Shown piece after piece: positions 44,330-60,255 of a stretch of DNA of 64,000 nt. The stretch is taken from the NCBI RefSeq assembly GCF_022829285.1, contig NZ_JAKSYI010000057.1, positions 26,033-90,032 of the forward strand. Reading direction: 5' to 3'. Position 1 is the stretch's first letter. The number at the start of each line of letters is the position of its first letter. Origin of the DNA: Methylobacterium sp. J-078 (GTDB taxonomy: Bacteria; Pseudomonadota; Alphaproteobacteria; Rhizobiales; Beijerinckiaceae). The notes below the pieces were generated by a model that was given only the letters and a program-made list of their open reading frames with translations, ran no database searches and was not told the DNA's origin. Position numbers and translations under genes: made by a program.

Positions 44330-44414
44330 GCCCAGGTGGCGGAATTGGTAGACGCGCTGGTTTCAGGTACCAGTCTTGCAAGAGGTGAAGGTTCGAGTCC
44401 TTTCCTGGGCACCA
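44330..44414 (+). tRNA. tRNA-Leu(CAG)
   Basis: Acceptor stem GCCCAGG (44330-44336) pairs with CCTGGGC (44404-44410), discriminator A, CCA encoded at 44412-44414. The anticodon stem CTGGT/ACCAG holds loop TTCAGGT, giving anticodon CAG. A long variable arm (class II) and GGTTCGAGTCC T-arm are present. Its 3' end is the likely integration site of the element that begins at 44415. Confidence 0.95.
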
Positions 44415-44498
44415 TCAGCTGGCTAAGCCGCTGATCCGCAGAACGAAATAGCAAAATCAGGGACTTACACTGCCCGGTTGGTACAAGCGGGTGGTACA

Positions 44499-46055
44499 AT
44501 GGCGTTGATGACGACGCGTCCCTGGAAGCATCCCAAGACCGCCTCCTACTACCTACGCCGGGCCGTGCCGCTCGACCTACGCGCGCTCGTTGGCAAGCGC
44601 GAGGAGAAGGTCAGTCTTGGCACCAAGGATCCCGTGGAAGCTAAGCGGCTGCACGCCGTCGCCCTTGTGGAGCTCGAGCAGCGGTGGGCAGCGTTGCGGG
44701 TGGGGCCACGCTACCTGAGCGAGCGCGAGGCGCACGAACTCGCTGCCCCCGTCTACGACCACTGGCTGGGTCTTTATCGCGACGAGCCCAGTCGGCAGAC
44801 CTTTTGGCACATCGAGTTGGGCGACAAGCTCTGGCCGCCGCGGCGTCGGGGCTGGTCGCAGAGGTCCGAGCTGGGCACCGCCCTCATCCGCGATGCGAAG
44901 GGGACCGTCGAGAGCGGTCAATCCGCGATGGAAGAATGGTGCCTTCAGGAAGCGACAGCCCTTCTGAAGCGTCGGGGGCTCATCGTCCAAGAGGCGGATC
45001 ACCTTAATCTCGCCAAAGGCATCGCTGCCGCCGTGCAGCGAGCGAGCTTGACCCTTGCTCGCTACGCGCGAGGTGAGTTCGATGGGCCGACTTTCGGGTC
45101 ACCAGTTGCCATGAACCAAGGCCCGGTGCCAGCGCAGGCCCCAGCTACACGGCCATCCGTGACCATTGATGAACTCGTGACCGGGTGGGCTGCAGAGAGA
45201 AACCCGACCGAAAAGACCCTCTACGAATGGAAGCGTGTGCTCCGGGGTTTTGTGGCTTTCACCGGCCACGACGATGCGGGGCTGGTCACGCCCGAGAACG
45301 TCATCGCTTGGAAGAACGAACTGGTCGCCGCTGGCCTCAAGCCGAAGACGATCAACGATGCCAAGCTCGCGCCGGTGCGTACCATCCTGCAATGGGGTGT
45401 CAGCAACCGGTGGCTACCGGCCAACCCGGCTGCAGGCATCACCATCAGCGCCAAGAAGAAAGCAGGTCAGGGGATCCGCAGCTTCACCGAAGCGGAAGCT
45501 CTTACAATTCTGCAGGCAGCGGCCAGCGAAGCCGATCCGGTGCGGCGGTGGATACCCTGGCTATGCGCTTATACCGGCGCTCGGCTGTCCGAGGTATGCC
45601 AGTTGCGAGTTGAGGACATACGGGAGATCGACGGCGTCCCGACGATGCGGTTTGATGCTGAGGCAGGCTCACTGAAAACCGTCGGCTCGGAACGGACGGT
45701 GCCATTACATTCTGCCCTGATCGCGGCTGGCTTCCTCGACTTCGTCCGCGCGCAGGGCACCGGACCACTGTTCTCCCGCCTGAGACCAGATAAGTTTGGC
45801 AAACGTGGCGGCAACGGCACTAAGACTCTCGGGCGGTGGGTAAGGGATTTGGGCATTACCGACACACGGTTATCTCCGAATCACTCGTGGCGACATCGGT
45901 TTAAAACCTTAGCCCGCAACCACGCCCTCGCGCCCAACATTGCGGATGCGATCACCGGGCACTCTCACAAATCGATTGGCGATCAGTATGGCGAGTACAA
46001 TGTATTGGCAATGAAGAGGGAACTGGAAAAAATACCAGCGATCCTATTAATCTAG
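44499..46055 (+). CDS. tyrosine recombinase / integrase
   Basis: 518 aa. N-terminal DUF6538-like segment (WKHPKTASYYLRRAVPLDLRALVGK), then SAM-like core-binding region (VTIDELVTGWAAERNPTEKT), then the catalytic domain with Arg in TGARLSEVCQLRVEDI, HxxR in NHSWRHRFKTLA, and GHSHKSIGDQYGEY with the nucleophilic tyrosine. It would insert and excise the island at the tRNA. ATG 44499 is chosen over the in-frame TTG 44478; neither has a clear ribosome binding site. The repeated GGTACAA just before the start may be a recombinase arm site. Confidence 0.92.
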   Translation: MALMTTRPWKHPKTASYYLRRAVPLDLRALVGKREEKVSLGTKDPVEAKRLHAVALVELEQRWAALRVGPRYLSEREAHELAAPVYDHWLGLYRDEPSRQTFWHIELGDKLWPPRRRGWSQRSELGTALIRDAKGTVESGQSAMEEWCLQEATALLKRRGLIVQEADHLNLAKGIAAAVQRASLTLARYARGEFDGPTFGSPVAMNQGPVPAQAPATRPSVTIDELVTGWAAERNPTEKTLYEWKRVLRGFVAFTGHDDAGLVTPENVIAWKNELVAAGLKPKTINDAKLAPVRTILQWGVSNRWLPANPAAGITISAKKKAGQGIRSFTEAEALTILQAAASEADPVRRWIPWLCAYTGARLSEVCQLRVEDIREIDGVPTMRFDAEAGSLKTVGSERTVPLHSALIAAGFLDFVRAQGTGPLFSRLRPDKFGKRGGNGTKTLGRWVRDLGITDTRLSPNHSWRHRFKTLARNHALAPNIADAITGHSHKSIGDQYGEYNVLAMKRELEKIPAILLI

Positions 46056-46337
46056 ATGCAGTCAAAAGGATTTTGGATTCCCCGTCCCCGCCATTTGCAT
46101 AAAAATAATGCAATATATTGGTAGGTTGGCGGCTTTTATTTGCCAATAAATCATTTGACCCCGATATGGCCCCGTCCTTGAACCGTATGGGTGTCTGACG
46201 ATGACATCACACGCTTAGTGGTTGCCTCGCAACTCATCTACCCGCGCTGGAGTTGGGTTCGGGGTTCGAGGAATCGCCTCCCACTTGGGCGAGACGTGAC
46301 ACCTATCGGCAATGATTGAACCTGAAAGGCTTCACCG
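46056..46337. other. 282 bp without recognisable feature
   Basis: A/T-rich sequence downstream of the integrase (including TAAAAATAATGCAATATATTG). No gene, repeat or clear hairpin terminator is seen. Confidence 0.4.
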
Positions 46338-46571
46338 ATGACGGACAAGCTCAAGAGGACGATACTCGGGGCGGTCATCGCCATCGCCCTGGCTGCTGCT
46401 GTGTCCTACGGGCTCATCAGCCAGCAGACCGCGGACAACTTTCAGAACAAGGCTGACCAAGCTATCGCAGAGGATCAAGGCGCTTCTCCCCCGGCGAACC
46501 AACAACAGGCCCCTTCGACCAGCGCGTCGGATGAGCGCCAGGCGCCAGCGCCGCAACCGGCCAAGCCATAG
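46338..46571 (+). CDS. small membrane-anchored protein, 77 aa
   Basis: One N-terminal hydrophobic helix (TILGAVIAIALAAAVSYGLI) and a Gln/Pro/Ala-rich soluble tail. AAGGCTTCACCG precedes ATG 46338. No family recognised. Periplasm-facing tail is likely. Confidence 0.5.
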   Translation: MTDKLKRTILGAVIAIALAAAVSYGLISQQTADNFQNKADQAIAEDQGASPPANQQQAPSTSASDERQAPAPQPAKP

Positions 46572-46577
46572 GATTGA

Positions 46578-46790
46578 TCAGGGAAGCTGCTTCTCCCAGC
46601 GACATGTCGCGGTCTCGAAAGCCTCGTAGACCACGTCCTTCCCCTCGTCCCTGACAGTGATGGAGTAGCGACGCGGCTCCCCATCATCTGGAGCGGACTG
46701 AGCAGCTTCGGTCAGGGTACGGATAGCTTCGGAGCGAGCCTTGTTTGTGGCCAGCGCAAGCCGCTTTGTGATGTGGCCCTCAAGTAAGGA
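46578..46790 (-). pseudogene. 5'-truncated small ORF remnant
   Basis: The minus strand reads open from a TAA at 46791-46793 to TGA at 46578 with coding-like sequence (EGHITKRLALATNKARSEAI, RTLTEAAQSAPDDGEPRRYS, ITVRDEGKDVVYEAFETATC). No ATG, GTG or TTG is available before the conserved-looking part, so the 5' end seems lost. Function unknown. Confidence 0.4.
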
Positions 46791-46880
46791 TTAACGCTGC
46801 GTGAGCATCGTTGTGAAGCTGATCGATTAGCCGTTCGGACCAAACGAGTCCGCCCGGTCGCGACAGGAGACAGCCGGTCC

Positions 46881-47327
46881 ATGCCTCGCCTGCTCGAATT
46901 GCTGCGCTGGAAACTCCAGGTGATTTTTGCGTGGAAGCCAACACGTGCTCAATTGCTTCCCCTAGTCCTGGGGGTTTTCGCCATAGCGGGTTGGGGAGCC
47001 TACGCGAACAAAGCGTCAGCCAACCGCAATCTTGCGGCTGAGGTCAGCCTGTTTCAGACGGAAAGAAACGGGTTTGTAAGCCGCCAAAAAGAGCTGGTGC
47101 TGGCAAACATCGACCTTACCCGTGAGTGGCAAGCCAAACTCGCCTCCGCACGCGAGGAGCTCGGCCAAGCGGTTGCGGCCCGCGACACGGTCAAGGGTCA
47201 GCTTGGCATTTCACAGCGCGAGCTTGTCGCCTCGAAGAAGCGCCTCGATCAGGCTCGTGAACGTGTAACGGAGACGGGAAGCATCAAACCCGCTGAGCCT
47301 TCGAAGAAGGCCGTGAGTAAGCCATAG
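46881..47327 (+). CDS. membrane-anchored coiled-coil protein, 148 aa
   Basis: One membrane helix near residues 22-45 (LLPLVLGVFAIAGWGAYA) and then about 85 residues of heptad-rich coiled coil (LTREWQAKLASAREELGQAV, GQLGISQRELVASKKRLDQA). GACAGGAGACAG lies about 12 bp before the ATG. Layout resembles small spanin-like or structural island proteins; no family identified. Confidence 0.55.
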   Translation: MPRLLELLRWKLQVIFAWKPTRAQLLPLVLGVFAIAGWGAYANKASANRNLAAEVSLFQTERNGFVSRQKELVLANIDLTREWQAKLASAREELGQAVAARDTVKGQLGISQRELVASKKRLDQARERVTETGSIKPAEPSKKAVSKP

Positions 47328-47424
47328 AGGCGCCCGGCGGTTCGACCCTCGGTGTCATGAAGCCGAGCTACGCTAGTTTCCTTGGGGACTCAGCTCAAGG
47401 AGGTCTGGCTAGGAGGCCGTGACC

Positions 47425-48396
47425 GTGTCTTGCTCCCTCTACGATTCGCAGCCTCTGATGGTTGAGTGCTGGCGGGGCTTAGGACTGGACGCGACATTAG
47501 TGACCGAAGCTCTCGACAGCATTGCGAGCGTGCTGGAGGGCACCGGTGAGTACCGGGTGCTTCGTCGTGTGCCGCCATTTGCCGAGGGCGTTGATCCGCC
47601 AAACGAGCCGACGTTCATCGGACTGATTCTCGACACGGAGACGACCGGTATCGATCCCGCACGCGACGAAGTGATCGAGCTTGGCATCATCAAGTTCGAG
47701 TACGGCGCAAGCGGCCGCATCTACCGCGTGATCGAAACGCTCAATCAGCTCCATCAGCCGAGCAAACCGATCCCACCCGAGGTTACGCGCCTGACCGGCA
47801 TCACGGATGCCGACGTAGCTGGCCAGCGCATCGATGATGCGGCTGTCAGCGCGATGGCCGCTGATGCCGCAGTGGTGATCGCTCACAATGCCAGCTTCGA
47901 CCGCCAGATGTGCGAAGGCCGTTGGCCGATCTTCATCGAGAAGAACTGGGCTTGTTCCTGCCATCAGGTGCCCTGGCGCGACGAGGGCCACGAAGGCATG
48001 AAGCTCGGCTACCTGCTGACCGATTACGGCTTCTTTCATAACGGTCATCGCGCCCTCGACGATTGCCATGCCCTCCTGGCGCTGTTGGCAGCCCCGCTGA
48101 GGACCTCTGGTCGCCTTGCCCTGTCGTGCCTGCTCGAAACTGCCCGCAGGCCCACGGTGCGCATCTGGGCCGCAGGTTCACCCATCACCACGAAGGACGT
48201 GCTGAAAGCCCGCAGCTATCGCTGGAGCGGTCGGCGTCGGTGCTGGTACATCGATGTTGATGAGGGCCAACTCGAGATCGAGCGCACCTTTCTCAACCAA
48301 GAGATTTTCCAGCGCGAGTTCCAGGACCTGCCGACAGATCGGATCACGGCGCGGGATCGGTTTTCCGCCCGGACGAACCCCGAAGCCTTGGGGTGA
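47425..48396 (+). CDS. DEDD-family 3'-5' exonuclease (DnaQ-like)
   Basis: 323 aa. Exo I LILDTETTGIDP (Asp70, Glu72), Exo II AHNASFDRQ, and Exo III with GHRALDDCHALLALL give a DEDDh exonuclease. About 65 residues precede the domain. A C-terminal module with RSYRWSGRRRCWYIDVDE resembles an add-on found in other stand-alone DnaQ-like proteins. GTG 47425 sits eight bases after AGGAGG; GTG 47419 is too close to it. Role could be DNA repair or phage defence. Confidence 0.85.
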   Translation: MSCSLYDSQPLMVECWRGLGLDATLVTEALDSIASVLEGTGEYRVLRRVPPFAEGVDPPNEPTFIGLILDTETTGIDPARDEVIELGIIKFEYGASGRIYRVIETLNQLHQPSKPIPPEVTRLTGITDADVAGQRIDDAAVSAMAADAAVVIAHNASFDRQMCEGRWPIFIEKNWACSCHQVPWRDEGHEGMKLGYLLTDYGFFHNGHRALDDCHALLALLAAPLRTSGRLALSCLLETARRPTVRIWAAGSPITTKDVLKARSYRWSGRRRCWYIDVDEGQLEIERTFLNQEIFQREFQDLPTDRITARDRFSARTNPEALG

Positions 48397-48445
48397 GATT
48401 CTGAGCTAAGCCTGGGCACATTTAAGCGTCGCAGCGTGCCACCGG

Positions 48446-48898
48446 CTACCGATATGCGATGGAACCGTTGGCGCGTTCCATCTCGAAGCGATGGTGTCGG
48501 CGACCCAAGCTATCGATCTGTGTATCCTCATCGACCACCGAAAAGCCCCGTGCTTTGTAGAATTGCAAAGCTAAAACGTTTTCTGCGAAGACGTGGAGCC
48601 CGAAGCGTTCATGACGATCCTGTGTCGCTTGCAGCAGAGCTGATCCAACACCGATGCCGGTACGACCTACGTACAACGCGGGAATGTAACCCACATCATC
48701 TACGGTGATGAAGCCGATCACCACGCCGTCGAGTTCAGCAAGCAGAGTTTCAGAGTGACCCAGCAGAAGCTTCAGATGCTGACGCCCCTCGGTCTGCTCA
48801 CTGTGTTCTAGGAACGAATGAGAGACGGGGAAGGTCTGGTCGAAGACTGCGAGCACCGAATTTTCGTCAGTTTCGCACCTGTAGGGACGTATGTGCAT
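48446..48898 (-). CDS. GNAT-family N-acetyltransferase
   Basis: 150 aa with acetyl-CoA binding segment YVGRTGIGVGSALLQATQ (R-x-x-G-x-G), preceded by strand DGVVIGFITVDD, and the C-terminal NVLALQFYKARGFSVVDED signature. Cytoplasmic; substrate unknown. ATG 48898 begins the family N-terminus (MHIRPYRCETDEN). Confidence 0.88.
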   Translation of the reverse strand: MHIRPYRCETDENSVLAVFDQTFPVSHSFLEHSEQTEGRQHLKLLLGHSETLLAELDGVVIGFITVDDVGYIPALYVGRTGIGVGSALLQATQDRHERFGLHVFAENVLALQFYKARGFSVVDEDTQIDSLGRRHHRFEMERANGSIAYR

Positions 48899-49062
48899 TG
48901 CCTGTAGGTAGCCTCCTGGATGGACAGCTGTAGCGCCCGGGCCGGCGAAAGTCCGTGCTTCATGCGAGAAACTCGGTACACGATGTATCGGAAAAGGAGC
49001 TACCAGAGGGGTGGACGGCCAAGTACGCCGTTTATGCAGCAGGGAGGCAGGCAAAATTGCCG

Positions 49063-49326
49063 ATGTCAGGGACCAACGATTATCTCCGGGCGCTTCTCGA
49101 TCAGGCGGCTGCAGAGGAAGATTTCCTCCACCGGCTGCGCCGCGCGGAGGTCTTTCCGCCGAGCGATCTCGCTGCCCCAGCTGCGTCATTTCCCGCCTTG
49201 TCGCTGATGATCACGAATCAGCAACGCGCAGAGTTGCGTGAGCTTGGCTTCTCGGATGAAGCCGTTCGGCAGATGACCCCCGCGGAGGCGCACGCGCAGC
49301 TTGGCCTACGCAACTCGAGCTTCTGA
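49063..49326 (+). CDS. small hypothetical protein, 87 aa
   Basis: Begins MSGTNDYLRALLDQAAAEED and ends with QRAELRELGFSDEAVRQMTP and HAQLGLR, a helix pair resembling UBA-like ends seen on many small rhizobial plasmid proteins. An earlier start at 48955 would add 36 residues of less likely sequence. Function unknown. Confidence 0.5.
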   Translation: MSGTNDYLRALLDQAAAEEDFLHRLRRAEVFPPSDLAAPAASFPALSLMITNQQRAELRELGFSDEAVRQMTPAEAHAQLGLRNSSF

Positions 49327-49334
49327 CCACGATT

Positions 49335-49505
49335 TCACCGGTCCATCCTCCTGAGAATGGCTGTCCGGCCGACCATTCGCCGCCGTGCAAGCTTGGCAAG
49401 CGCGGTAGCAATCTCAGCTTCTGTCACGTCGTCGGAGTCATTGTGACCACTATGCCGCGCCAGCATGGCCTTTGCTCGCAATGGCGCAGTTGGGTTGCCG
49501 CCCAC
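49335..49505 (-). CDS. possible 56-aa protein or remnant
   Basis: From GTG 49505 the minus strand reads GGNPTAPLRAKAMLARHSGH, then DVTEAEIATALAKLARRRMV and RTAILRRMDR before TGA. Composition is coding-like and helical. It starts only 25 bp from the palindromic element at 49530, so it may be the 3' part of a gene cut by that element. Convergent with the upstream small gene. Confidence 0.4.
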   Translation of the reverse strand: MGGNPTAPLRAKAMLARHSGHNDSDDVTEAEIATALAKLARRRMVGRTAILRRMDR

Positions 49506-49529
49506 ACGAAATCACCCCAGTCCGGTCTT

Positions 49530-49675
49530 AGTGTCTGTCCGGAAACCTGCCTTTGGAATCATTGTGTTTTTCGGAACGCACAGACGCCGTTTTTAGAATT
49601 CCCCCTGTGAGGCTCCGCAATTCGCTCCGTCTGGAAACGTCGATTCCGCTTTTGAAATGTTTCCGGACAGACACT
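49530..49675. mobile_element. MITE-like element with 17-bp perfect terminal inverted repeats
   Basis: AGTGTCTGTCCGGAAAC at 49530-49546 is exactly inverted at 49659-49675. The 112 bp between have no gene. Size, perfect ends and position between coding regions fit a miniature inverted-repeat element or the footprint of a recombinase. No target duplication is obvious. Confidence 0.6.
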
Positions 49676-49736
49676 TCGGATCGTGGGTAAGTGGCAGCCT
49701 GATGTATCGGCTTAGCGACGAGAAGGGGCTGTGCGG

Positions 49737-50627
49737 ATGCCGATCAGCAGAAAGGACCTCACGGGCGCGAGCTCGCCGGAGGCGCTCGTCAAGCGCATCC
49801 TACAGGCTGAACCCGAACTTACGGTGCCCGTGCCGATCCAGGACCTATGCGAGCGCCTCGGGATCCTCAGAATTGAGGACCTCAGCACTGACGAATTCGA
49901 GGGCGGCCTCGTTACCGACGCGAAGCGGTCAGAAGGCACCATCCAAGCCAAGCGCGGGGGCGAATTGCGTCGCCGCTTCACCATCGCGCACGAACTCGGC
50001 CACTTCCTGATGGCGCACCACGTCCCGGATCAGCCCGGCCAGTTCCTGTGCAAGAGTTCTGACCTACTGCGCGTTACCGCGAAGGACGGCGACAGGCGGC
50101 AGCGCATGGAGGTCGAGGCCAACCGCTTCGCCGGTCTCGTGCTGATGCCCCCGCACCTACTACGTGCGGCTATGTCAGCGTTTCGCGAGCCCGATCTGCA
50201 GCACGTTCTTGCGCTCGCGCGCGACTTCGCGGTCGGTAAGGAGGTGGCGGCTCGGGCCTACGTGCAGTACCACCCCGAGCGGATCGCCATCGTCGTGGCG
50301 GGGAACGGCCGGGTGCAGCGGTGCTACCGCAGCCTCTCCTTTCCGGACATCATCTGCGCGGTCGGCAGCCCGGTCCCGACACGCTCGCGCTATCACAGCA
50401 GTTCGCATCGGCCGAACATTGCCAGCGACATCGCCGCGTGCAGTCCCGATCTCTGGATCGATGTGAAGCGCGACCTTCGCGCGCCGTTTCTCTACGAGCA
50501 GGTGTACCTACAGCAGAACGGTTTCGCGATGATCCTGCTGCGTCTGGAACCTGTCCCGGAGGAAAGCGCGGATGAGCGCAGGCAAGAGGAAGGATGGCGC
50601 TACCGCTTCCACTCCGGGCGACGGTAG
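49737..50627 (+). CDS. ImmA/IrrE-type metallopeptidase
   Basis: 296 aa. Zinc motif HELGH at residues 85-89 in RRFTIAHELGHFLMAHH, third ligand probably Glu127 in MEVEANRFAGLVLMP, all typical of the ImmA/IrrE (M78) family that cleaves HTH repressors. The C-terminal ~120 residues are less conserved and may sense a signal. GAAGGGG lies eight bases before ATG 49737. Usually an HTH repressor gene lies adjacent; none is visible here. Confidence 0.85.
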   Translation: MPISRKDLTGASSPEALVKRILQAEPELTVPVPIQDLCERLGILRIEDLSTDEFEGGLVTDAKRSEGTIQAKRGGELRRRFTIAHELGHFLMAHHVPDQPGQFLCKSSDLLRVTAKDGDRRQRMEVEANRFAGLVLMPPHLLRAAMSAFREPDLQHVLALARDFAVGKEVAARAYVQYHPERIAIVVAGNGRVQRCYRSLSFPDIICAVGSPVPTRSRYHSSSHRPNIASDIAACSPDLWIDVKRDLRAPFLYEQVYLQQNGFAMILLRLEPVPEESADERRQEEGWRYRFHSGRR

Positions 50628-50769
50628 GCAACACTTATGAAGAATTGAGTTGCCGAGTTTAGCTACGATTTTGGCCTCAATAATATTTCGGGATCGAACG
50701 AACCAATGTGCCATGTCAGTATGGCTTGTGCCCCAATGGCACGGGCAGGCAATGGCGCGGACGAAAGTG

Positions 50770-51828
50770 CTAACCGCCTGAAACACCTGGACCGCCCTCT
50801 GGGGCGGTCTTAGCTTGCGCTGCGGCTGTCTGTGCATCAGCCCGCAGCATGTTGCCGAGTTTCTCAACGAGGTCGACGCAGCACCTCACCGCCGCGGCCT
50901 GAATCACCAGGCGCTGACCCTCTCGGTATGAGGCATCCCCACTCTTGACGACGTAATCAGCGTCAACCAGCCCATCTTTGTGCGCCAGCAAGTGCCTCTG
51001 CTGGAAATACCGGCCCAGCTCGGTCAGATCATCGGCGCCGAGATGCTGCTCGTACGTGGTGCCGTAAGCCTGGTGCCAGAGCCGGCTGCCCTCCTCCAAG
51101 TTCTGGAAGGCGTTCCGCCGTGCCTTCGGCGCCGCCGGATTGGCAGTAAACAGAGCTTCGGCGAAACGCTGGAACGCCGTCACCGCGCTCTGCAGGCCGC
51201 CTTCGATTAAAGAACGTGCGGCGTGTTCGGCGGCATCTCGGTCGGGAATAGCTACCTTTAGTGTGGGAACTACATCCAGGGACGCCCGGATCTTGTCGAG
51301 GGACTGGCTGAACATATGGTCGGCAGCGTTATGGCCGCACGATGGGCAGAAGTATGCTGAACCGATCACGCTGTAGCGGCAATTACATTTCTCACAGCTG
51401 ATTTTAAGCCGCATTGGTTCGGTGGCCGTCAACGGCAACTGCACGGGTTCCGGGGTTCCAGCTACCTGCATTGTGATGCTCACTAACTGGTTCGGCCGCT
51501 GCCGCCGGTTCCAGTCGTTAGCGTCCTGACGCATCGCCTGATCGAACCCGTCCGTGAGTTGGTTGAACGCAGCCTGCTTGGCCCATTCCACCTGCTCGGT
51601 TGTCAGCCAGTCCTGCGCCGGTGCTGCATGTCCGCAAGAGGGACAGAAGACTTCCTCGTCGCGGACGATGTCCGACCAATCCTGCTCATGAACCTTGAAG
51701 CCGAACCGGCACGGGTCGTTGGGGCATTCCTTGTCGAGATAGCCGTCCGCGTCAGCCTGGCATTCCAGATTCACGCTGACCTGCTGGCCATCTAACTTGC
51801 CTAGAAACTTCAGAAGCTCATCGAACAT
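50770..51828 (-). CDS. two zinc ribbons plus RxxxxH (HEPN-like) C-terminus
   Basis: 352 aa. Two treble-clef/ribbon-like cysteine sets: C35-x4-C40 with C62-x2-C65 (FCPSCGH) and C145-x2-C148 with C161-x2-C164 (FCPSCGH). After a helical stretch, YFQQRHLLAHKDGLVDADYV contains R278-x4-H283, the HEPN RNase signature, in a helix-rich region. ATG 51828 has GGGAGG upstream. HEPN is inferred from the motif and helices only. It is divergent from the GHKL-nuclease gene, suggesting a functional pair. Confidence 0.6.
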   Translation of the reverse strand: MFDELLKFLGKLDGQQVSVNLECQADADGYLDKECPNDPCRFGFKVHEQDWSDIVRDEEVFCPSCGHAAPAQDWLTTEQVEWAKQAAFNQLTDGFDQAMRQDANDWNRRQRPNQLVSITMQVAGTPEPVQLPLTATEPMRLKISCEKCNCRYSVIGSAYFCPSCGHNAADHMFSQSLDKIRASLDVVPTLKVAIPDRDAAEHAARSLIEGGLQSAVTAFQRFAEALFTANPAAPKARRNAFQNLEEGSRLWHQAYGTTYEQHLGADDLTELGRYFQQRHLLAHKDGLVDADYVVKSGDASYREGQRLVIQAAAVRCCVDLVEKLGNMLRADAQTAAAQAKTAPEGGPGVSGG

Positions 51829-52223
51829 GATGCCTCCCCCCACCGCGAGTCCCGAGCCAAACCTAGCCTCGCGGCGATAGGAACAGACGCCGAACAGGGG
51901 GTTGGGGAGGGGTATCTCTTAGCGTGCTCCTCACGGCTATCAGTGCACGGAAAACTGTGTTTGAAGGGCTATCGGCTTTGCAGTGTTTTGAGGCACTGCT
52001 ACTCAAAGCTCGAACTGTGCGGGCCAATGCCGATATAATTTGCGGAACTATTTGCAGCAAAAATTACCCCGTGCGTTGTCGCACCCGATAAGGCTGATGC
52101 GTCAACCTATTCCCGCAAATCTGAGGTTGGGCGGCATGTAGCCTATCACCCGCACCAGAGCATGCCTATAAAGGCAAGCGTGGCCAATCGAGCATCAGAC
52201 CCGAGCGGCACCGGGGGCAGGAC
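51829..52223. other. 395-bp divergent promoter region
   Basis: A/T-rich sequence (for example GATATAATTTGCGGAACTAT near 52030) likely carries promoters for both flanking genes. A short hairpin GTGCG...CGCAC is at about 52072. No gene seen. Confidence 0.45.
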
Positions 52224-54197
52224 GTGGCAAACCTCGAAAGCGATATCATCGGCCGTGTGAACCGGCTGGCTCTACGGCCAACGGAAAAAAACGCCCTGCT
52301 GCCACTCATGGAAGCGGTCAGCAATTCGGTCCATTCGATCACGGACCTGTACGACGCTGAGGCGCGCACTAAGGGCCGGATTTATTTGCGTGTGGTCAGG
52401 CTGGGGGATGATCCAGCTGGCCGTGTGATCGGCTTCGATATCGAGGATAACGGCATAGGCTTCACGGACGACAATTTCCGCTCGTTCCGAACGCCCGACT
52501 CCCGGTGGAAGGAGACACGTGGCGGCAAAGGCGTTGGTCGCCTGGCCTGGCTAAAGGTGTTCGACCGGATCACCGTTGACAGCACCTTTCAGGGTAAATC
52601 GGGCTGGGAGCGCCGCGCCTTCGATTTCCGGCTATCGGAGCAGGATCAGATCCTTGAGCGGGAAAGCCACACGGTGGAGCCCGCGCATCGGACCATCATC
52701 AGCTTCAGGGGCCTGAAAACGCCTTTTGAGAACCGCTGCCCGGTCAAGCTGGGCGTCATTGAAAACCGGATCGCAGCGCACTTCGTCCCACTGTTCGTTG
52801 CTGGCAATGCGCCCAAGGTGACGGTCGAGGATGACGGCATAACCGAGATTGAGACGGTGTTCAGCGAGAGCATCGTTGACCACGAGACGACGACCATAAC
52901 TATAGGCGAAGGGGACGACGCCTTTCCCCTCACCGTCTGGTCGCTCAAGTGCGACAAGCGCATGCGGTTCGAGCCGCCAGCCTTCAACTTCGCTTTCATC
53001 GCGGGCGATAGCAGGTCGGTCATCGACTATGCCATTGACGAACAGCTGGGCCTCAAGGCGCTCGACCGAGAGCATGTCTACATCGCCTGCGCGTCCAGCC
53101 CGTACCTCGATACGAAGGTCAACAGCGAGCGCACCGCGTTCACCCTCGATCCATCCGAGGTGGACGAAATCAAGCGCGGGATCGCACAGGCCGCTCGCCA
53201 TTACCTGCGCCCCTACATCGAGGAGGCCATCGCCCGGAAGGTCGAAACGACAAGGGATCTGATTTCGGAAAACCCGCAGTTCCTGTATCTGGCCGACGAC
53301 CTGGAAAATTTCGCTGAGGGCCTGCAGCCTAATTCATATGGGAAGGAGGAAATTTTCCTAGAAATGTCCCGCGCGCGGTTTCGCAGGCAGAAGAAGTTCG
53401 TCGCCGTCGAAAAGTCGATCAAGACCGGCGAGCTACTGAAGGGCCCTCTAACTGAAAAGGTCGAAGAATATACCGGATATATCGCCGACGAAAAGCGGGG
53501 CGCTCTAGCTGAGTATGTAACACGTCGTAAGGCAGTCCTTGATCTGTTTGAAACGCTGCTGGAATACGACGACACGGGCAAGGAGACGTATAGCAAGGAG
53601 GATGCGCTTCACCAGCTGTTCTGCCCTATGCGCATCGACTCTAAGGGCCTGACGATTGACGATCATAATCTGTGGCTGCTGGATGATCGTCTGGCATTTT
53701 TTAACTTCTTCGCTTCCGATGAGCGGCTGTCGAATTATACGACCCTCGATAGCGACGAAAGGCCGGACTTGGCCTTTTTCTACAACTCCTGCGTGGCATG
53801 GAGGGAGCGCGAGGACACCGACACCATCGTGATTGTCGAGTTCAAGCGCCCGATGCGGGAGGACTACAACAAAGGCAAGGACCCGATTCAGCAGGTGCTT
53901 TCGTATGTGAAGCGCCTCAAGGACACATCTGGCGAGGTCGATATCCGCGGGCGGTCGATCCGGGGCATCCGGCCAAGTACGTCGTTCCATTGCTATGTCG
54001 TGGCGGACATCACCCCGCAGTTGGAGGAACGGATTATCGGCCGCTTTGAAAAAACCCCAGATGGCGAGGGTTATTTCGGCTACACGACAAATCCAGCTGC
54101 CTTCGTGGAAATCGTGCCGTTCGGCAAGGTTATGCAGGACGCGCGACTGCGGAACGCGATCTTCTTCCAGAAGCTCGGGATCACGAACACCGGCTGA
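52224..54197 (+). CDS. GHKL (HSP90/MORC-like) ATPase fused to PD-(D/E)xK nuclease
   Basis: 657 aa. The GHKL fold has Glu30/Asn34 (LMEAVSNSVHSI), the DNGIGF box (residues 75-80) and the lid RGGKGVGR (99-106), as in MutL/HSP90/MORC ATPases. The middle is a transducer-like and helical region (about 190-480). Near the C-terminus, ERPDLAFFYN (Asp515) and IVIVEFKRP (Glu539-x-Lys541) form a PD-(D/E)xK nuclease site. ATP-driven clamping coupled to DNA cutting is the likely mode. Paralogous architectures occur in restriction-like and anti-phage systems. Its HEPN-type neighbours support defence. Confidence 0.82.
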   Translation: MANLESDIIGRVNRLALRPTEKNALLPLMEAVSNSVHSITDLYDAEARTKGRIYLRVVRLGDDPAGRVIGFDIEDNGIGFTDDNFRSFRTPDSRWKETRGGKGVGRLAWLKVFDRITVDSTFQGKSGWERRAFDFRLSEQDQILERESHTVEPAHRTIISFRGLKTPFENRCPVKLGVIENRIAAHFVPLFVAGNAPKVTVEDDGITEIETVFSESIVDHETTTITIGEGDDAFPLTVWSLKCDKRMRFEPPAFNFAFIAGDSRSVIDYAIDEQLGLKALDREHVYIACASSPYLDTKVNSERTAFTLDPSEVDEIKRGIAQAARHYLRPYIEEAIARKVETTRDLISENPQFLYLADDLENFAEGLQPNSYGKEEIFLEMSRARFRRQKKFVAVEKSIKTGELLKGPLTEKVEEYTGYIADEKRGALAEYVTRRKAVLDLFETLLEYDDTGKETYSKEDALHQLFCPMRIDSKGLTIDDHNLWLLDDRLAFFNFFASDERLSNYTTLDSDERPDLAFFYNSCVAWREREDTDTIVIVEFKRPMREDYNKGKDPIQQVLSYVKRLKDTSGEVDIRGRSIRGIRPSTSFHCYVVADITPQLEERIIGRFEKTPDGEGYFGYTTNPAAFVEIVPFGKVMQDARLRNAIFFQKLGITNTG

Positions 54198-54240
54198 TGG
54201 CTGCTCAGGTGACGGTGATTTCGCCTCTGGCGGCCTTATC

Positions 54241-54408
54241 TTACAGGGCATGGACCATAAAGCTGCAGACCGATAAATAGATCTCCAGCCGCTCCAGCGG
54301 CTCCATCCGCTGCCGCTCCGAGCGGATCGAATAGAACGATTGCCACAGATCGTCCGCAGCAGCATCTCGTGCGAGATAGACGGGCAAACGATCCGGGGCT
54401 AAATTCAT
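54241..54408 (-). CDS. small protein, 55 aa, convergent with GHKL gene
   Basis: ATG 54408 to TAA 54241 encodes MNLAPDRLPVYLARDAAADD, then LWQSFYSIRSERQRMEPLER and LEIYLSVCSFMVHAL. Composition is protein-like and amphipathic helices are evident. No clear ribosome binding site. It lies 43 bp from the GHKL stop, on the opposite strand. Function unknown. Confidence 0.5.
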   Translation of the reverse strand: MNLAPDRLPVYLARDAAADDLWQSFYSIRSERQRMEPLERLEIYLSVCSFMVHAL

Positions 54409-54560
54409 GGTTAATGAATCATTTTAATCCTAGGCCGTCCTCATTCAGGTCGGCTTAGCAGAGGGGGGGGCGTCTCGGTTCGGGCGCCAGCGGCACGAAA
54501 CTGCTAATAACGAACTTTGGTCGGCGAGTATGGCCGCCCAGATGCAGCGGCCATTAGACC

Positions 54561-55661
54561 ATGGAATCTGGTATCTATCTGCGTGAGCTCAACAGGCAGC
54601 TCACCTACCTCTTTGCCTATGCACGCAAGCTCAACGAGATCGACACGGCAGCCGCTTTGTCGGGCGAGTTTCGCGGCGCGCAGGATGCGGGCTGGACCAC
54701 GACCATCACCGCATATGAGGTTTTCGGCGAGCTCAAGGCCCTTGCTACGAAAGGCGCGCCGCTTACGCGCCCGGAGCTCAGGCAGATCCTCTGCCTCTAT
54801 ACGCAGCTCTCCGAAGCTGGCGGGGTATACGAGGGCTTGCTCAACACCATGCACGTCGCGCAGTTAAAGGGCTACAATCTCTGGCCATTCCAGGATCTGG
54901 TAAGGGTTCGGAGGCAGCCCCACGCCATCGTCGGTCCAAACGCCAATGCGATGTTCCGAAGACTGGCACAGGTCGCCACCGAGATCGGAATGACTGGGCT
55001 TGCGCACCTCTTCGAAATCACCTTCCGCGACGACATCCGCAACGGCATCGCCCATGCCGATTACATCCTCGGTCCGGACGGCCTTCGTCTGCGAAGGAGG
55101 AATGGCGGTAACGCGATGGTGCTGCCATTCGAGGAGGTTCAAAACGCCCTGCAGATCGGCTTGTACTTTTTCGAGCTGCTCGGGCTCCAACAGCAGACAG
55201 TGGCCGAGTCGTTTCGGCCGGCCCGAAAGATTGTTGGTCGGTTCAGCGCCAACCCTCCCATGTCCTGGACGATTGAGCTGACCGAGGATGGACGTTTCTC
55301 AATCTCCAGCAACGCCCTCGCGCCTCAGGTCGACGATGCCTATGAGCGGCAGCGCCGGATCACCGACCGCCTAGGAGGCTGGATGGTCGCTGCCTACGTC
55401 ACGCAGGCCAGGCCTGTCTCTCCGATACTCATGAGCGACATTTACGCGGCGGGGTTCGACGTCCTCGTGGTCGACCTCAAGGACACGCAGCGGTTCGAAG
55501 ATCTGCTCGCTGAGGTCGAAGAGCACGGCCTATGGGATCCGCCCGCAGGCGCCGGCGAAGCGGCCTGTCTGGTGGTGACGCCGATGGGCTTCCGATGGAT
55601 CGCCACAGGTGCGGAGTTTCAAGCTTGGCTCCCCATCGTCGAGGAGATCGAAGTCGCCTAA
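54561..55661 (+). CDS. HEPN-like protein with RxxxxH motif, 366 aa
   Basis: Helix-rich N-terminal ~200 residues hold FRDDIRNGIAHADYIL, with R160-N-x3-H165, a strong form of the HEPN ribonuclease signature (the RN dipeptide is typical). The C-terminal half (about 210-366) has alternating strands and helices including ITDRLGGWMVAAYVTQARPV and IYAAGFDVLVVDLKD, family unknown. ATG 54561 is used; SD is weak. Lying after the GHKL-nuclease gene, it could be the RNase effector of the same system. Confidence 0.6.
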   Translation: MESGIYLRELNRQLTYLFAYARKLNEIDTAAALSGEFRGAQDAGWTTTITAYEVFGELKALATKGAPLTRPELRQILCLYTQLSEAGGVYEGLLNTMHVAQLKGYNLWPFQDLVRVRRQPHAIVGPNANAMFRRLAQVATEIGMTGLAHLFEITFRDDIRNGIAHADYILGPDGLRLRRRNGGNAMVLPFEEVQNALQIGLYFFELLGLQQQTVAESFRPARKIVGRFSANPPMSWTIELTEDGRFSISSNALAPQVDDAYERQRRITDRLGGWMVAAYVTQARPVSPILMSDIYAAGFDVLVVDLKDTQRFEDLLAEVEEHGLWDPPAGAGEAACLVVTPMGFRWIATGAEFQAWLPIVEEIEVA

Positions 55662-55693
55662 TCGCAGCCTGAAGCGTAGCCCTTTGCATTCAT

Positions 55694-56092
55694 CACAACG
55701 GCAGGTCATCGTCGAGATCATAGGTCGGTCGTCCGGCCATTCTGCGCGCCGTGGCTTCTTCGCGCGGCGGCAGGGCACTGCCCGCGACCTCCCTGGAACA
55801 TATCGTTGCGATCTTTGTCCGCTGTTCGATGCAATCATTCAAGATTGCATCGGCCAAACGCTGGCGATCATCACTTGCGACATATAGGATGGAGATCGCG
55901 GCGCACGATGACGGTAGCCGCGTTCACCCCGAAGGCGGCTGCCGTGCCGGCTCGCGAGAAATCCTGGAGCGGCATCGAGAGCGGCCTTGTCGAGATCAGG
56001 CTCAATTCCCTCGCGCAGGTCGATCAGCTTCGGCCGCCACCGAGCAACGTAGTGTCCGACCCGCTACGCGCCCTCCACCCATGATTATGTTC
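55694..56092 (-). pseudogene. frameshifted remnant of an unknown gene
   Basis: Coding-like sequence occurs on the minus strand in more than one frame: GHYVARWRPKLIDLREGIEP and DLDKAAL at about 56040-55975, then RQRLADAILNDCIEQRTKIA and, before TGA 55694, EATARRMAGRPTYDLDDDLP. Stops and frame changes separate them, and an in-frame TAG precedes the first piece. Parent family not recognised. Reading is tentative. Confidence 0.3.
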
Positions 56093-56708
56093 GGCCTATC
56101 ACCGCCCATAGCGGATCGCCGAAGCCGCCCTCAGGCACCACTGCATAAGCCTCGATGGCCGAGAACCCGGCGTGCCGTAAGTAGACGTCGATGAGCCGCC
56201 CTTGATCGTCCCCGTGCAAGGCGCGCCAGATGGCCACCGCCTTCGTCGGAAACCACCGATTCGAAAATGAAATGATCATGGGGGCGTCCGGCACCAGCAC
56301 GCGGGCCACCTCGCGCAGCACAGCTACAGGGTCCTGCAGGTACTGCACCCCGACGCAGATGAGAGCGGCGTCGATGCTGTCGGTCTCGAGTGGCAGGATC
56401 GGATCGGCGTTGAGGTCCTGCACGAAACGCTGCGTCAGACGCGGGTTGGCGGCCAACTCGCGGTCGTTCAGGCCATGCCCGATCACAGCGGCGTAGGCGG
56501 CCTCCGCAGGCAAGTGGCTGACCCAGCTCGACATCAAGTCGAGGATGCGTCCGCCGGGCGGCAGATGAGTGCGGTATAGATCGGTAACGGCTTCGACGGC
56601 CGCGTCGTCGATATGCGTGACGAAGCGCGGTTGGTCGTAGAACAGGGCGTCCGGCGTCTCGTCCTCCTTGGCGAAGGCTTCGGGGGGCAATCCGGGAAGG
56701 GTGATCAT
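56085..56708 (-). CDS. class I SAM-dependent methyltransferase
   Basis: 207 aa. SAM-binding region GGRILDLMSSWVSHLP, acidic loop strand, DSIDAALICVGVQYLQDPVAVLREVARVLVPDAPMIISFSNRWFP is the usual Methyltransf_11 motif IV-VI. Its N-terminus LFYDQPRFVTHIDDAAVEAV is shared by small uncharacterised methyltransferases of proteobacteria. Substrate unknown. Confidence 0.85.
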   Translation of the reverse strand: MITLPGLPPEAFAKEDETPDALFYDQPRFVTHIDDAAVEAVTDLYRTHLPPGGRILDLMSSWVSHLPAEAAYAAVIGHGLNDRELAANPRLTQRFVQDLNADPILPLETDSIDAALICVGVQYLQDPVAVLREVARVLVPDAPMIISFSNRWFPTKAVAIWRALHGDDQGRLIDVYLRHAGFSAIEAYAVVPEGGFGDPLWAVIGRT

Positions 56709-56902
56709 GGTCGTCCCCGTTTGCCTATCTCACCGCCAGGCGCAACGACTTCGAATGTAGCAAAGCACAATCAGGCGTACTGTCTCCATATCTTGGCCGT
56801 CATCCTGACCTTTGTCCTGAGGGTGATCGTCGCGCCCTGCTGCAGGACGCGGCCGGCCGGACCGTGAGCGACACGAGGGTTATTGGGGTACGCCGCCCGC
56901 CC

Positions 56903-58078
56903 TCACTGCGTCTTAGTCACGATCCAGTCGATGATCGCGTTGGCAACCGCGCCATTGTTCATTTCCAGCATCATCATGTGCCCATTGCCGTGGATCCCAT
57001 GCTCAGCAAGCGCAAGGCGATCTGGCTTTGCGCCGGCTTGGGCCAGAAAAGCACCCGTGCAGTCGTCCATCGTCGCCCGGAACGATGCTTCGCCGGTGAC
57101 GATGACCGATGGCACTTTCGCGAGGTTCGGGAGCTGCCGGGCAGGCTCGGCCTGCAACCAGCAGCGGATCTGACCCGGCCGGGTTGGTTGGTCGGTTTGC
57201 ACGACCGTCAGATCGCTCGGGGAGCTCACAGGCGGCTCAAAGCGGAGCGGCACGCGGGTAATGCCGTAGGGTCGAGCACGCGCCTCGCCGACGCGCTCGT
57301 ACCACTCTGCACCGCCCTTGAACTTAATGTCGAAGAAGGTTGGGCCGTTCGGCTCAACGGCGACGTGCGCCTTCACGAGATCAGGCCGTTGATCCGAGAC
57401 TGCCCAGCCGAACACCCCGGCTTGCGAGTGGGTCAGCACGACCGACGGGCCGATCTTCTCTAGCAGCGCGATGAGAGCCGGGTTGACCAGCTCCTCACTC
57501 TTCAGCCCATTCGCGATGTAAGGCACTTGGGAGAGGTAGAACTGGTCGAAAGCGGCGTTGCCCTTCACGCCGGGGCCGCCCGGCCACTGGGTGTGGAGCT
57601 TAGCCTGCGGGAAGAGGCCGAACTTCTCTTGGCCTGTGAAGATGCTCTCCAGATCGCCGGGCGCAAGCCGGGCATAGGGGCCGTAGACCTCCGGGTTGTC
57701 GCCGGATCGGCCACGGCCGACCTGATCGACGACGTAGACGGCAAAGCCGCGCTCGACGAAATGATCTACCCATCCGCGCCGGCCATCGGGAGTGCCGAGG
57801 AAATTAACGCCGGTCTGTGCCGTGCCGTGCACCAGCAGGACCGGATAGGGCTGGGTGACCTCGGCCGGGGCGTGGAACTGGACGAACATCTGCCCGGTGG
57901 CGAGTTCCTTTCCGCCAACTGCTTCATAGCGGCCACCAACGAAGAAATAGCCCTCACGCTGCGCCGGTTTGAAGACCGCTGGCACGTCACGGGGGGCGGG
58001 AGCAGGCTCGGCAAGTGCCGTCGCCGTGAACCCGAACAGGGCGCAAGCCCCAAGCAGCGCCAACTTCCGCATCGACAT
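56903..58078 (-). CDS. secreted alpha/beta hydrolase
   Basis: 391 aa with signal peptide KLALLGACALFGFTATALAEP. The oxyanion segment VLLVHGTAQTGVNF, nucleophile elbow THSQAGVFG (Ser in HSQAG) and a late histidine in LAEHGIHGNGHMMMLE give an active hydrolase, related to periplasmic esterases and to plant RXW8-like ABhydrolases. Substrate unknown. ATG 58078 with AGGATGTCG upstream; a second ATG two codons later also fits. Confidence 0.85.
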   Translation of the reverse strand: MSMRKLALLGACALFGFTATALAEPAPAPRDVPAVFKPAQREGYFFVGGRYEAVGGKELATGQMFVQFHAPAEVTQPYPVLLVHGTAQTGVNFLGTPDGRRGWVDHFVERGFAVYVVDQVGRGRSGDNPEVYGPYARLAPGDLESIFTGQEKFGLFPQAKLHTQWPGGPGVKGNAAFDQFYLSQVPYIANGLKSEELVNPALIALLEKIGPSVVLTHSQAGVFGWAVSDQRPDLVKAHVAVEPNGPTFFDIKFKGGAEWYERVGEARARPYGITRVPLRFEPPVSSPSDLTVVQTDQPTRPGQIRCWLQAEPARQLPNLAKVPSVIVTGEASFRATMDDCTGAFLAQAGAKPDRLALAEHGIHGNGHMMMLEMNNGAVANAIIDWIVTKTQ

Positions 58079-58430
58079 CCTCCCACGGACGTCTGCTGCG
58101 TCCTGTCTGGTATATCGGCGCGGAACAGGTTGCCTGTCTATGCGCGATCAGACGTGCGGCTCTACCGTGCCCTCAAGCGACCGCGACCTTCTGCAACAGG
58201 AAGGCTGCACCGTCCCTTCGCGTTGGAGGTCGCGAGCTTCCCGAACGGCAGATCGCTCGCTTGAAGTGACCGGGTCCGGTCGCAACAGCGACGCGAGGTC
58301 ATGGGACCGCCCTTTAGTCATCGTCGTTTCCGGCATCGTGATGGGCTGCCATGACAAGCTGGTCGCGCCAAACAAGAATGGCATCTGGATGCAATAAGAG
58401 GAGGACGGCCATCCGCAAGAGCATGATCCC
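58079..58430. other. 352 bp without supported gene
   Basis: No convincing frame on either strand and no repeat detected. Confidence 0.4.
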
Positions 58431-58709
58431 TCACTCGGACGCTTTCGCTGGCCTGCCTGCCATTTCGTAAACAGCCTCAAGCTCTTGCTCTAACTCGACA
58501 ACGCGCTGATAGGCCTCCTTGGAGAGAGATACCAGCTCGCGTATGCGGTCCTGGTTCGGCGTCCCAGCCCGTTCGGCATGTTCCGTCTCGTGTAGCAGTG
58601 CAATCAAGCTGTCGCGTCTTTGACGAGCGATCACCAGCTTGCTTTCCAGAGAGTCGATCCGGATCTCGTCTTCCTCAATCGTCACGTCGCTCTCCGGTTT
58701 GTGGCACAC
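58431..58709 (-). CDS. small coiled-coil protein, about 92 aa
   Basis: Mostly one or two coiled helices (RIDSLESKLVIARQRRDSLI, RIRELVSLSKEAYQRVVELE). Start is GTG 58709; no strong ribosome binding site. Unknown family, common type on mobile elements. Confidence 0.5.
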   Translation of the reverse strand: MCHKPESDVTIEEDEIRIDSLESKLVIARQRRDSLIALLHETEHAERAGTPNQDRIRELVSLSKEAYQRVVELEQELEAVYEMAGRPAKASE

Positions 58710-59052
58710 TTGCGTAAGACTTTACACTTTGTATGCGATAGTTTTTGTCAGACATAAATGACATTATGGAAGATCCTATCGTTAGATGACGCTTGCATGC
58801 GAGGAAGAAAACTCAATATAGGATTTAAATTTTTACATTTACAAGATTTTTGCTATGCTGACGGTGTTGGCTGGTGAACCGGTGCGCCGCATCGGTAGCG
58901 GCCGACGCTGAATGGGGAGAAGCGTCATGCATCAGCGATCACGACCGCAGTGGCACCGGCCGCCATCGTGTCCATCGCGGCGCACTCTCCTCAGCAGCAC
59001 CTCCACGGAAGGCCCCCATCACGGGGGCCTTCGTCGTTTCAGGAGCACCCGC
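58710..59052. promoter_or_regulatory. A/T-rich promoter region and leader hairpin
   Basis: 58730-58860 is the most A/T-rich segment of the window and likely holds promoters. Downstream, GAAGGCCCCC (59008-59017) pairs with GGGGGCCTTC (59023-59032), a strong hairpin 20 bp before the next ATG. It may act as a terminator or attenuator in the leader. Confidence 0.5.
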
Positions 59053-59796
59053 ATGACCGCTCGAACGAACCTGCCCGCTCTCGTTGTCGAAGCACCCCTC
59101 ACACCGCAGCCGCCCGTTCTCGTGCTGTTTGGGCGCGACCGGGGCGGCAAGCCCCGCGCCGCCTGGTTCGATGGCAACCAGGCCGAAGCTGCCAAAGCCG
59201 CCGCCGACACCATGAAGCTGCGCGCCTTGCCCATCGAAGGCGAGGAGCCGTGCGCGCTGGCCATTCAACTTGCCCACGGCCGTATCCTGCCCAGCGGCAA
59301 GGCGCACGTACCGGGAGCCCGGCCCGACCTCTACGGGCGTCTTGTTGCACTGGCAGGGGAATGCGCTGGCCTAAGCCTTGCCGAAGCAGGACCTGATGCT
59401 GGCAGCGCACCAGACCCCACCACGCCCAAGGTGATCGCGCCGGGCGGCCTTGATCAACCCGCACCGACGGTAGCCCCGGTCGCCCCTGTCGCGCCGCCTC
59501 GGCCCTCCTCAGAGGCGGATAAGCCCATCGCGGCGAGCCTCGGGGTGGACAGCGCGCCAAAGCCGCGCCCTGGTGACCGCAACTTCGTTGGCACCCCCAA
59601 GCCTCGCGAGCGTGACGAGATCGGCCTCGGCAGCCTCGTTCTGGCTCACGAGGGCCCCGAGGACGGCTGGTGGGAGGCGGAGGTGATCGGCATCAACGGC
59701 CAGGTCTTCTCCTTGCGCTGGAGGGACTACCCGCTGCAGGCGACCATCCTGCGCAAAGCCGGAGAACTCGCCATGCTGCCCCCTGGCGGGGCCTGA
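59053..59796 (+). CDS. hypothetical protein, 247 aa, Pro-rich middle
   Basis: ATG 59053 follows AGGAG. An N-terminal domain (LVVEAPLTPQPPVLVLFGRDRGGKPRAAWF) of about 110 residues, a Pro/Ala-rich linker, and a C-terminal SH3-like strand region (GLGSLVLAHEGPEDGWWEAE to FSLRWRDYP). Such layouts occur in rhizobial plasmid genes of unknown function. Confidence 0.6.
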   Translation: MTARTNLPALVVEAPLTPQPPVLVLFGRDRGGKPRAAWFDGNQAEAAKAAADTMKLRALPIEGEEPCALAIQLAHGRILPSGKAHVPGARPDLYGRLVALAGECAGLSLAEAGPDAGSAPDPTTPKVIAPGGLDQPAPTVAPVAPVAPPRPSSEADKPIAASLGVDSAPKPRPGDRNFVGTPKPRERDEIGLGSLVLAHEGPEDGWWEAEVIGINGQVFSLRWRDYPLQATILRKAGELAMLPPGGA

Positions 59797-59813
59797 GCGG
59801 CAGCGGCAATCCC

Positions 59814-59849
59814 GGGCGCCCAGGACGGCTGTGATCGGGCTGGGCGCCC
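59814..59849 (+). other. inverted repeat between two plasmid-type genes
   Basis: GGGCGCCCAG (59814-59823) pairs exactly with CTGGGCGCCC (59840-59849), loop 16 bases. It lies 18 bp after a stop and may terminate transcription, though no T-run follows. Confidence 0.45.
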
Positions 59850-59916
59850 CCTCTCGCGAGCCACCAAGGCCGCCGAGCGGCTGAGCTCCCCCCTTTCCCG
59901 GATCCCGAGGCTTCCC

Positions 59917-60255
59917 ATGACCACCGACATCCTCGATGTGGGTCGCGTTCGCGCGCTCAACGATGAGCTACGACGCTCGCTCACCGGCGGCACCCTGATG
60001 CTGACCGCGGGCATCATCGCGCTCGGCCGTGAGCGCCAGCAGGTGATCCTGTCCGCGGTGGCAGCCTTCGACCGCTTCGATGCCGACAACGATCCCTACG
60101 GCGAAGGCGATTTCGGCGCGCTCGAAGCCGCCGGCGAGCGCGTCTTCTGGAAGATCGACTACTTCGACCGCACCCTGGCCCGTGCCTCTCGAGACCCTGC
60201 GGATGCCAGCGTCACCGCCCGCGTGCTCACCGTGATGCTGGCGGCCGAGTACTAG
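59917..60255 (+). CDS. DUF3768 protein
   Basis: 112 aa. GRVRALNDELRRSLTGGTLM and LTAGIIALG, NDPYGEGDFGALEAAGERVF then WKIDYFDRTL, and the end VTARVLTVMLAAEY are the DUF3768 pattern, a small family of alphaproteobacterial plasmids and integrative elements. Function unknown. Typical cargo of conjugative DNA. Confidence 0.88.
   Translation: MTTDILDVGRVRALNDELRRSLTGGTLMLTAGIIALGRERQQVILSAVAAFDRFDADNDPYGEGDFGALEAAGERVFWKIDYFDRTLARASRDPADASVTARVLTVMLAAEY

Follow-up and report, generated by a model that had tools for sequence, protein, structure and literature searches.

The 64,000-nucleotide stretch of DNA analysed here (the window) comes from Methylobacterium sp. J-078 (contig NZ_JAKSYI010000057.1, positions 26,033 to 90,032) and carries three neighbouring genes, each of them defence-like, as a preliminary description of the same DNA had held. 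Their products are a zinc-ribbon protein with a HEPN-type RNase signature, a fusion of a GHKL ATPase with a nuclease, and a second HEPN-type protein with a predicted thioredoxin-like C-terminus. The open reading frames (ORFs) lie exactly where that description placed them, and they share an island with a tRNA gene and an integrase:

50770-51843, minus strand: ORF of the zinc-ribbon and HEPN gene, with a GTG start at 51843 (357 amino acids); its ATG form spans 50770..51828 (352 amino acids)
51844..52223, no strand: spacer of 380 bp between the divergent zinc-ribbon and GHKL genes
52224-54197, plus strand: GHKL-nuclease gene of paraMORC3 type, 657 amino acids, from Pfam, motif columns and hhalign
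54561-55661, plus strand: HEPN gene with a thioredoxin-like C-terminus, from a conserved motif and a predicted fold
44330..46055, plus strand: tRNA-Leu(CAG) (44330-44414) and tyrosine integrase (44478-46055), the left edge of the island

The island setting claimed earlier is borne out by the tRNA-Leu gene, the tyrosine integrase that adjoins it and a fall in GC content from ~0.70 to 0.57-0.62 across ~45-57 kb of the window. The tRNA was the sole Rfam match in 44000-64000. No repeat of the tRNA end of at least 16 bp occurs within the window, which ends at the contig end, the far end of the island lying beyond. The zinc-ribbon and GHKL genes had been proposed to share a promoter region, for which the spacer between them is the candidate; a search of 51800-54700 for sigma-70-like sites found none, against 1.4 expected.

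The catalytic residues named in the preliminary description are conserved in all three families. For two HEPN-family alignments (A1 and A2), which drew on 343 and 1220 matches, the best 120 in each case were thinned by length and redundancy, and the GHKL alignment (A3) was built from the best 120 of 712 matches plus genome and plasmid loci; neither A3 nor the related GHKL alignment A4 contains L010, L011, L012 (in-frame stop) or the fragments L014-L018. Fourteen residues of the GHKL protein (E30, N34, D75, G77, G79, R264, R303, E459, D487, D515, E539, K541, Q557 and D595) are identical in 83/83 sequences, the window included. In the zinc-ribbon family R283 is kept in 96/97 sequences, and H284, H288 and the upstream acidic E214 in all 97; the R278 and H283 of the preliminary description are these same R283 and H288, counted from the ATG (M6, five codons in) rather than in the 357-residue GTG frame. 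R160, N161 and H165 of the 54561 protein are present in all 78 aligned relatives, and E85 and E91 are invariant as well. An arginine followed by a polar residue and, four to six positions on, a histidine (Rx4-6H) is the published HEPN RNase signature, placed at the end of a helix (PMC3710099). Both HEPN proteins carry it, and in both structure models the motif falls at a helix end. The helical bundle that had been expected at both motifs is predicted firmly for the zinc-ribbon protein and only moderately for the 54561 protein. Searches of PDB sequences with the profiles of both families returned nothing under E 0.2.

In the genomes and loci that we surveyed, the three families are found together only in the window's own genome. 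In 397 genomes of the order, searches with the single proteins found the GHKL protein in 18, the HEPN protein in 2 and the zinc-ribbon protein in 2, the window's own genome being counted in each figure and being the only one in common. At genus level the GHKL gene occurs in 11 of 111 genomes, and the other ten yielded neither the zinc-ribbon protein (0/10) nor the HEPN protein (0/10) anywhere in the genome (E <= 1e-5); these ten included no positive genome, the zinc-ribbon profile elsewhere finding the window's own genome, as does the HEPN protein (not its profile). Within the genus, the GHKL proteins closest to that of the window (94, 82 and 79% identical) stand in genomes where no partner was found, and the seven genus loci that we opened (15-20 kb) have other neighbours and neither partner.

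The same picture emerges from the other two genes. None of the 22 HEPN loci from the genome scan, three of which are pieces of one draft genome, has a GHKL or zinc-ribbon gene in its flanks (up to 10 kb). Whole searches of 18 HEPN genomes found a GHKL gene in three and a zinc-ribbon fragment in one, always on contigs other than that of the HEPN gene. These 18 exclude L033, which lies on the same contig as the order-level G296, and L049, L053 and L054, which belong to one draft genome; L024, where the HEPN frame reaches the contig end, is outside the neighbourhood ORF sets. Across a locus set of 28 with the HEPN gene, 15 with the zinc-ribbon gene and 47 with the GHKL gene (repeats of the window included), no sequence other than the window's own brings two families together. 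The 20 GHKL and five zinc-ribbon loci from IMG/VR, and the scanned plasmid loci, hold one of the families each, and viral scans with the single proteins gave 0, 2 and 0 loci for the three.

The preliminary description had proposed the three genes as a candidate undescribed system, and had itself named co-occurrence elsewhere as a test; we reject that grouping on its absence across the order, the genus, the HEPN genomes and the loci examined. Because the families do not co-occur in the genomes and loci searched, we consider it quite probable that each gene of the trio, likely anti-phage in function, was inherited independently and travels as separate cargo beside a tRNA-Leu integrase.

A side observation concerns this cargo. 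In another genome of the genus (G953; L118:1938-10960), the 79% identical GHKL relative has relatives of the window's M78 peptidase (87%) and GNAT gene (70%) within 10 kb. These cargo genes may be drawn from a common island pool, even if that genome lacks the zinc-ribbon and HEPN genes.

The N-terminal motifs of the GHKL protein (E30/N34, D75-G77-G79 and G100-G105) and its C-terminal nuclease motif (E459-D515-E539xK541-Q557) confirm the fusion that had been proposed. Pfam matches of the window protein (PF13589, 2.5e-4; PF02518, 6.7e-4) both fall under the curated cut-offs, while HATPase_c is matched by 32 of 32 diverse family members (E <= 1), and a PDB sequence search with the family profile gave weak matches to histidine-kinase and MutL-type (PMS2) GHKL proteins (best E 4.7e-4). 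The middle domain keeps R264 and R303 in 83/83 sequences, and its S5-like nature is presumed from those residues rather than from a model. The closest named protein, from Methylobacterium sp. E-066, is 95% identical over the full length.

By profile comparison, the nuclease domain resembles those of Shedu proteins. Aligned by hhalign with eight Shedu proteins, the C-terminal domain (440-657) scored 92.7% (E 4.4e-7, score 51.6), with the ExK motifs in register. Controls stayed far lower: 0.2% for the N-terminal part, 0.3-0.4% for the two other families of the trio, 0.2% for a reversed Shedu target, and at most 3.4% (score 23.3) for 100 column-shuffled Shedu alignments. Several results weigh against the likeness. 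The control set held no other PD-(D/E)xK family; the Shedu model of Pfam matched 0 of 32 family members at E <= 1, and SduA of PADLOC matched one of 32, weakly (0.0032); alignment A4, compared over its whole length with one Shedu protein, scored 0.6%, with a different stretch aligned; and hmmsearch with the A3 profile placed none of the eight Shedu proteins over the inclusion threshold. No Shedu family of NCBIfam appeared for GHKL members among the first 25 of 32 families, and the window protein had no Shedu match by single hidden Markov model. The likeness is thus recovered only by profile comparison with the C-terminal domain isolated.

The GHKL-nuclease part already has a name: paraMORC3 was described in 2008 (PMC2292703), and in 2025 defence was demonstrated for VcSduA, which is laid out alike (PMC12137116). 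The paraMORC3 proteins of Iyer, Abhiman and Aravind join a GHKL domain to a restriction-endonuclease-fold nuclease with an E-D-ExK motif, and are prevalent in proteobacteria, laterally mobile and in a subset standalone (PMC2292703). The window protein shares this N-terminal set of ATP motifs and this C-terminal nuclease, together with a patchy distribution and varied neighbours (they differ among the plasmid and genus loci opened). The comparison is with the published description. From its sequence, we conclude that 52224-54197 encodes a GHKL ATPase and PD-(D/E)xK fusion with the published paraMORC3 architecture.

VcSduA (Shedu type I-D) protects against phages, and either E27A or K557A abolishes its defence (PMC12137116). 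Like the window protein it is a single chain with a GHKL N-terminus and a PD-(D/E)xK C-terminus, E27 and K557 standing against E30 and K541 here, and both genes lie on a genomic island. The two differ in that the DUF4263 signature emerges in the window protein only by profile-profile comparison; the likeness drawn here is one of layout. Given the paraMORC3 architecture and the phage protection shown for one protein so arranged, the GHKL gene likely acts on its own, by analogy, as a restriction-type defence. By the same analogy, ATP would bring two GHKL domains together as a clamp on invading DNA or a phage product; the closed clamp would then switch on the C-terminal nuclease, so that phage DNA is cut and the host survives. 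The gene adds a group with close same-genus relatives to the proteins of paraMORC3 and VcSduA type, with a nuclease that the Shedu models of Pfam and PADLOC miss.

Genes of DNA modification lie near two relatives of the GHKL gene: L025 has restriction-modification genes and L029 an N-6 DNA methylase. On the Vibrio fluvialis plasmid of L025 (4625-8019) the paraMORC3 relative overlaps the last 4 nucleotides (nt) of a true Shedu nuclease gene (SduA_C, 1.3e-25), the pair standing behind a type I restriction-modification gene group; two nucleases possibly related in kind adjoin here. A 689-residue protein of a Streptomyces microflavus plasmid (L063:25-2091), named Shedu, was considered as a GHKL-Shedu fusion and rejected, as it consists of AbiJ_NTD3 and SduA_C.

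The zinc-ribbon protein has zinc ribbons at ~40-70 and ~150-169 and a predicted HEPN domain at ~172-346 with R283-H284-x3-H288 (GTG numbering). Seven of the eight zinc-ribbon cysteines are invariant and the other, C153, is cysteine in 95/97 sequences. The PDC-M14A model of PADLOC (PADLOC-DB 2.0.0) matches the protein at 4.6e-17 over residues 22-172 only, and all 97 aligned members of the family match this 152-position model; what we add to it is the HEPN domain at the C-terminus and the range of different neighbours. Among the matches listed, PDC-M14 models hit no other window gene or scanned neighbour protein. A literature search found no paper naming PDC-M14, and the family is not named in the available parts of PMC3710099 or PMC11090510.

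We examined 12 zinc-ribbon loci besides the window (three plasmid, four genome and five IMG/VR loci). Omitted were L071 (a 24% identical fragment), L099 (arranged as L030 is), another three S. meliloti records, one S. medicae fragment, the fragments L103 and L126, and the distant relatives L093-L098 (~23-28% identical). A defence gene or gene group, by PADLOC family match, adjoins the zinc-ribbon gene in eight of the 12, and in four of these (L065, L030, L100 and L032) the zinc-ribbon gene follows it on the same strand after 15-44 nt; not every neighbour was covered by the scans, one example being the ORF immediately ahead of the zinc-ribbon gene in L070:

L030: PifA (6.9e-258), 27 nt upstream of the zinc-ribbon gene, same strand
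L065: type ISP restriction-modification enzyme (E=0), 15 nt upstream, same strand
L100: Gabija GajA/GajB (1.8e-287, 1.1e-256), 36 nt upstream, same strand, with PDC-S53 behind
L032: PLD (MkoB) (3.9e-8), 44 nt upstream, same strand
L070: MmeI-type enzyme (1.8e-165), with a helicase and one further ORF in between
L067: OLD-like ATPase (4.6e-22), convergent, with a 101-residue ORF in between
L064: ThsB-like TIR protein (2.1e-60), convergent
L104: HerA-like ATPase (1.2e-23), divergent, with a 71-residue ORF in between

The paraMORC3-type neighbour in the window is a ninth kind. The remaining four loci showed no defence neighbour. In L031 a 1371-residue protein gave AAA matches that were no more than weak; the others are L068, L069 (prophage tail genes) and L105, whose neighbours are, by eye, household-type genes.

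Since related loci often place unrelated defence enzymes beside it, the zinc-ribbon HEPN protein is probably a plug-in that is not bound to one system. Its varied neighbours suggest an accessory RNase that takes many partners, along the lines of PrrC but less tightly tied. PrrC is a HEPN RNase paired with a type I restriction-modification system. Like enzymes of the PrrC and RloC type, the zinc-ribbon protein lies beside DNA-restriction enzymes; those are ABC-ATPase fusions, often in restriction-modification operons (PMC3710099), whereas it has no ATPase domain and adjoins many kinds of system. Most likely it would serve as a second-line RNase: the zinc ribbons may bind nucleic acid or a partner, and the R-H-x3-H site would cut RNA and stop growth if the first line is engaged or failing. 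It is tempting to speculate further that this is a universal suicide RNase, a single mobile gene docked on unrelated immune systems that fires once the system it serves is engaged or a phage inhibitor blocks it, one guard for many first lines. We regard this as possible but unlikely, and keep it so because defence genes cluster anyway and our neighbour counts have no control set. If true, it would make the zinc-ribbon HEPN protein a single RNase back-up common to many unrelated immune systems.

The idea that a DNA-targeting enzyme works here with an RNase, put forward in the preliminary description, stands in part: zinc-ribbon relatives do often adjoin defence genes, but beside this GHKL family in no other locus examined. 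One form of it would make a two-gene unit of the window pair, with the zinc-ribbon RNase serving as a wired-in back-up of the divergent GHKL nuclease, as relatives may do for restriction-modification enzymes, Gabija, PifA or TIR proteins, and with the third gene unrelated. The defence neighbours in eight of 12 loci, four of them close upstream on the same strand, speak for such wiring; yet general clustering of defence genes could explain these neighbours too, four loci have none, and no other GHKL locus examined has a zinc-ribbon gene. The pair is also divergent in the window and not one operon, and we think this unit unlikely.

The third gene encodes a protein with a HEPN-like region at ~33-217, holding R160-N161-x3-H165, and a predicted thioredoxin/glutaredoxin-like fold at ~260-362 that has no conserved cysteine. 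A literature search combining HEPN, the thioredoxin fold and phage found no paper. Most likely the protein would act alone, either as an RNase toxin complete in itself or as an effector of abortive infection, and its C-terminal domain would sense the trigger.

In Stutzerimonas stutzeri TS44 (L034:10001-12145) an AbiJ_NTD4 protein (Pfam, 7.7e-11) is encoded ~36 nt downstream of the HEPN-thioredoxin-like gene, with a TrwC relaxase upstream. In two other genomes (L038 and L040, 8564-11143 in each) the HEPN gene lies as island cargo ~27 nt behind a tyrosine integrase, identified by Pfam in L038 and by BLAST cluster in L040.

Alternatively, both HEPN proteins may be the toxic halves of toxin-antitoxin pairs that have escaped recognition, and may serve addiction and not defence. 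Among solved structures, HEPN toxins of MNT-HEPN pairs are indeed some of the best matches to either model, via re-alignment. Set beside those toxins (8xeh, 7bxo) and the HEPN domains of Csm6, however, the window proteins have no recognised MNT partner and carry zinc-ribbon or thioredoxin-like domains instead. Nor does any antitoxin candidate recur beside the HEPN gene of the 54561 type: no neighbour cluster occurs in more than 3 of the 24 loci clustered. In a separate clustering of ten zinc-ribbon loci, these share, besides the gene itself, only an integrase in two (L100, L104 and L105 are outside the clustering). We therefore find the toxin explanation distinctly doubtful.

That all three genes form one system, in which the DNA-sensing GHKL nuclease meets phage DNA or fails and so releases two HEPN RNases that arrest growth, is highly improbable: the genes stand side by side and nothing convincing is encoded between them, the first two diverge over the shared spacer, and restriction enzymes with a HEPN RNase back-up are known in principle (PMC3710099), but no second locus examined has any two of the families, the nearest GHKL relatives lack both partners, and the HEPN genomes have none nearby. 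Reading the trio as ordinary island cargo avoids this wrong model.

Further side observations concern three other genes of the window. The protein at 62329-63792 (minus strand) joins a Pua-like domain to a metallophosphoesterase and comes near NCBIfam NF053862, 'DS9_1 anti-phage phosphoesterase' (398.6 bits, cut-off 420). The published DS-9 system also includes a HAD phosphatase gene, by the available text of PMC13092281; none was seen by eye downstream among the window ORFs, and the upstream side reaches the contig end. The M78 metallopeptidase at 49731-50627 (plus strand) matches capP of PADLOC at 1.3e-47, and no CapH-like helix-turn-helix partner was seen by eye directly upstream of it (ORFs of at least 40 residues, 49150-49800). 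Lastly, a DEDD 3'-5' exonuclease of the PRK09182 subfamily (NCBIfam, 368.7 bits; PADLOC DEDDh, 3.4e-29) is encoded inside the island at 47419-48396 on the plus strand.

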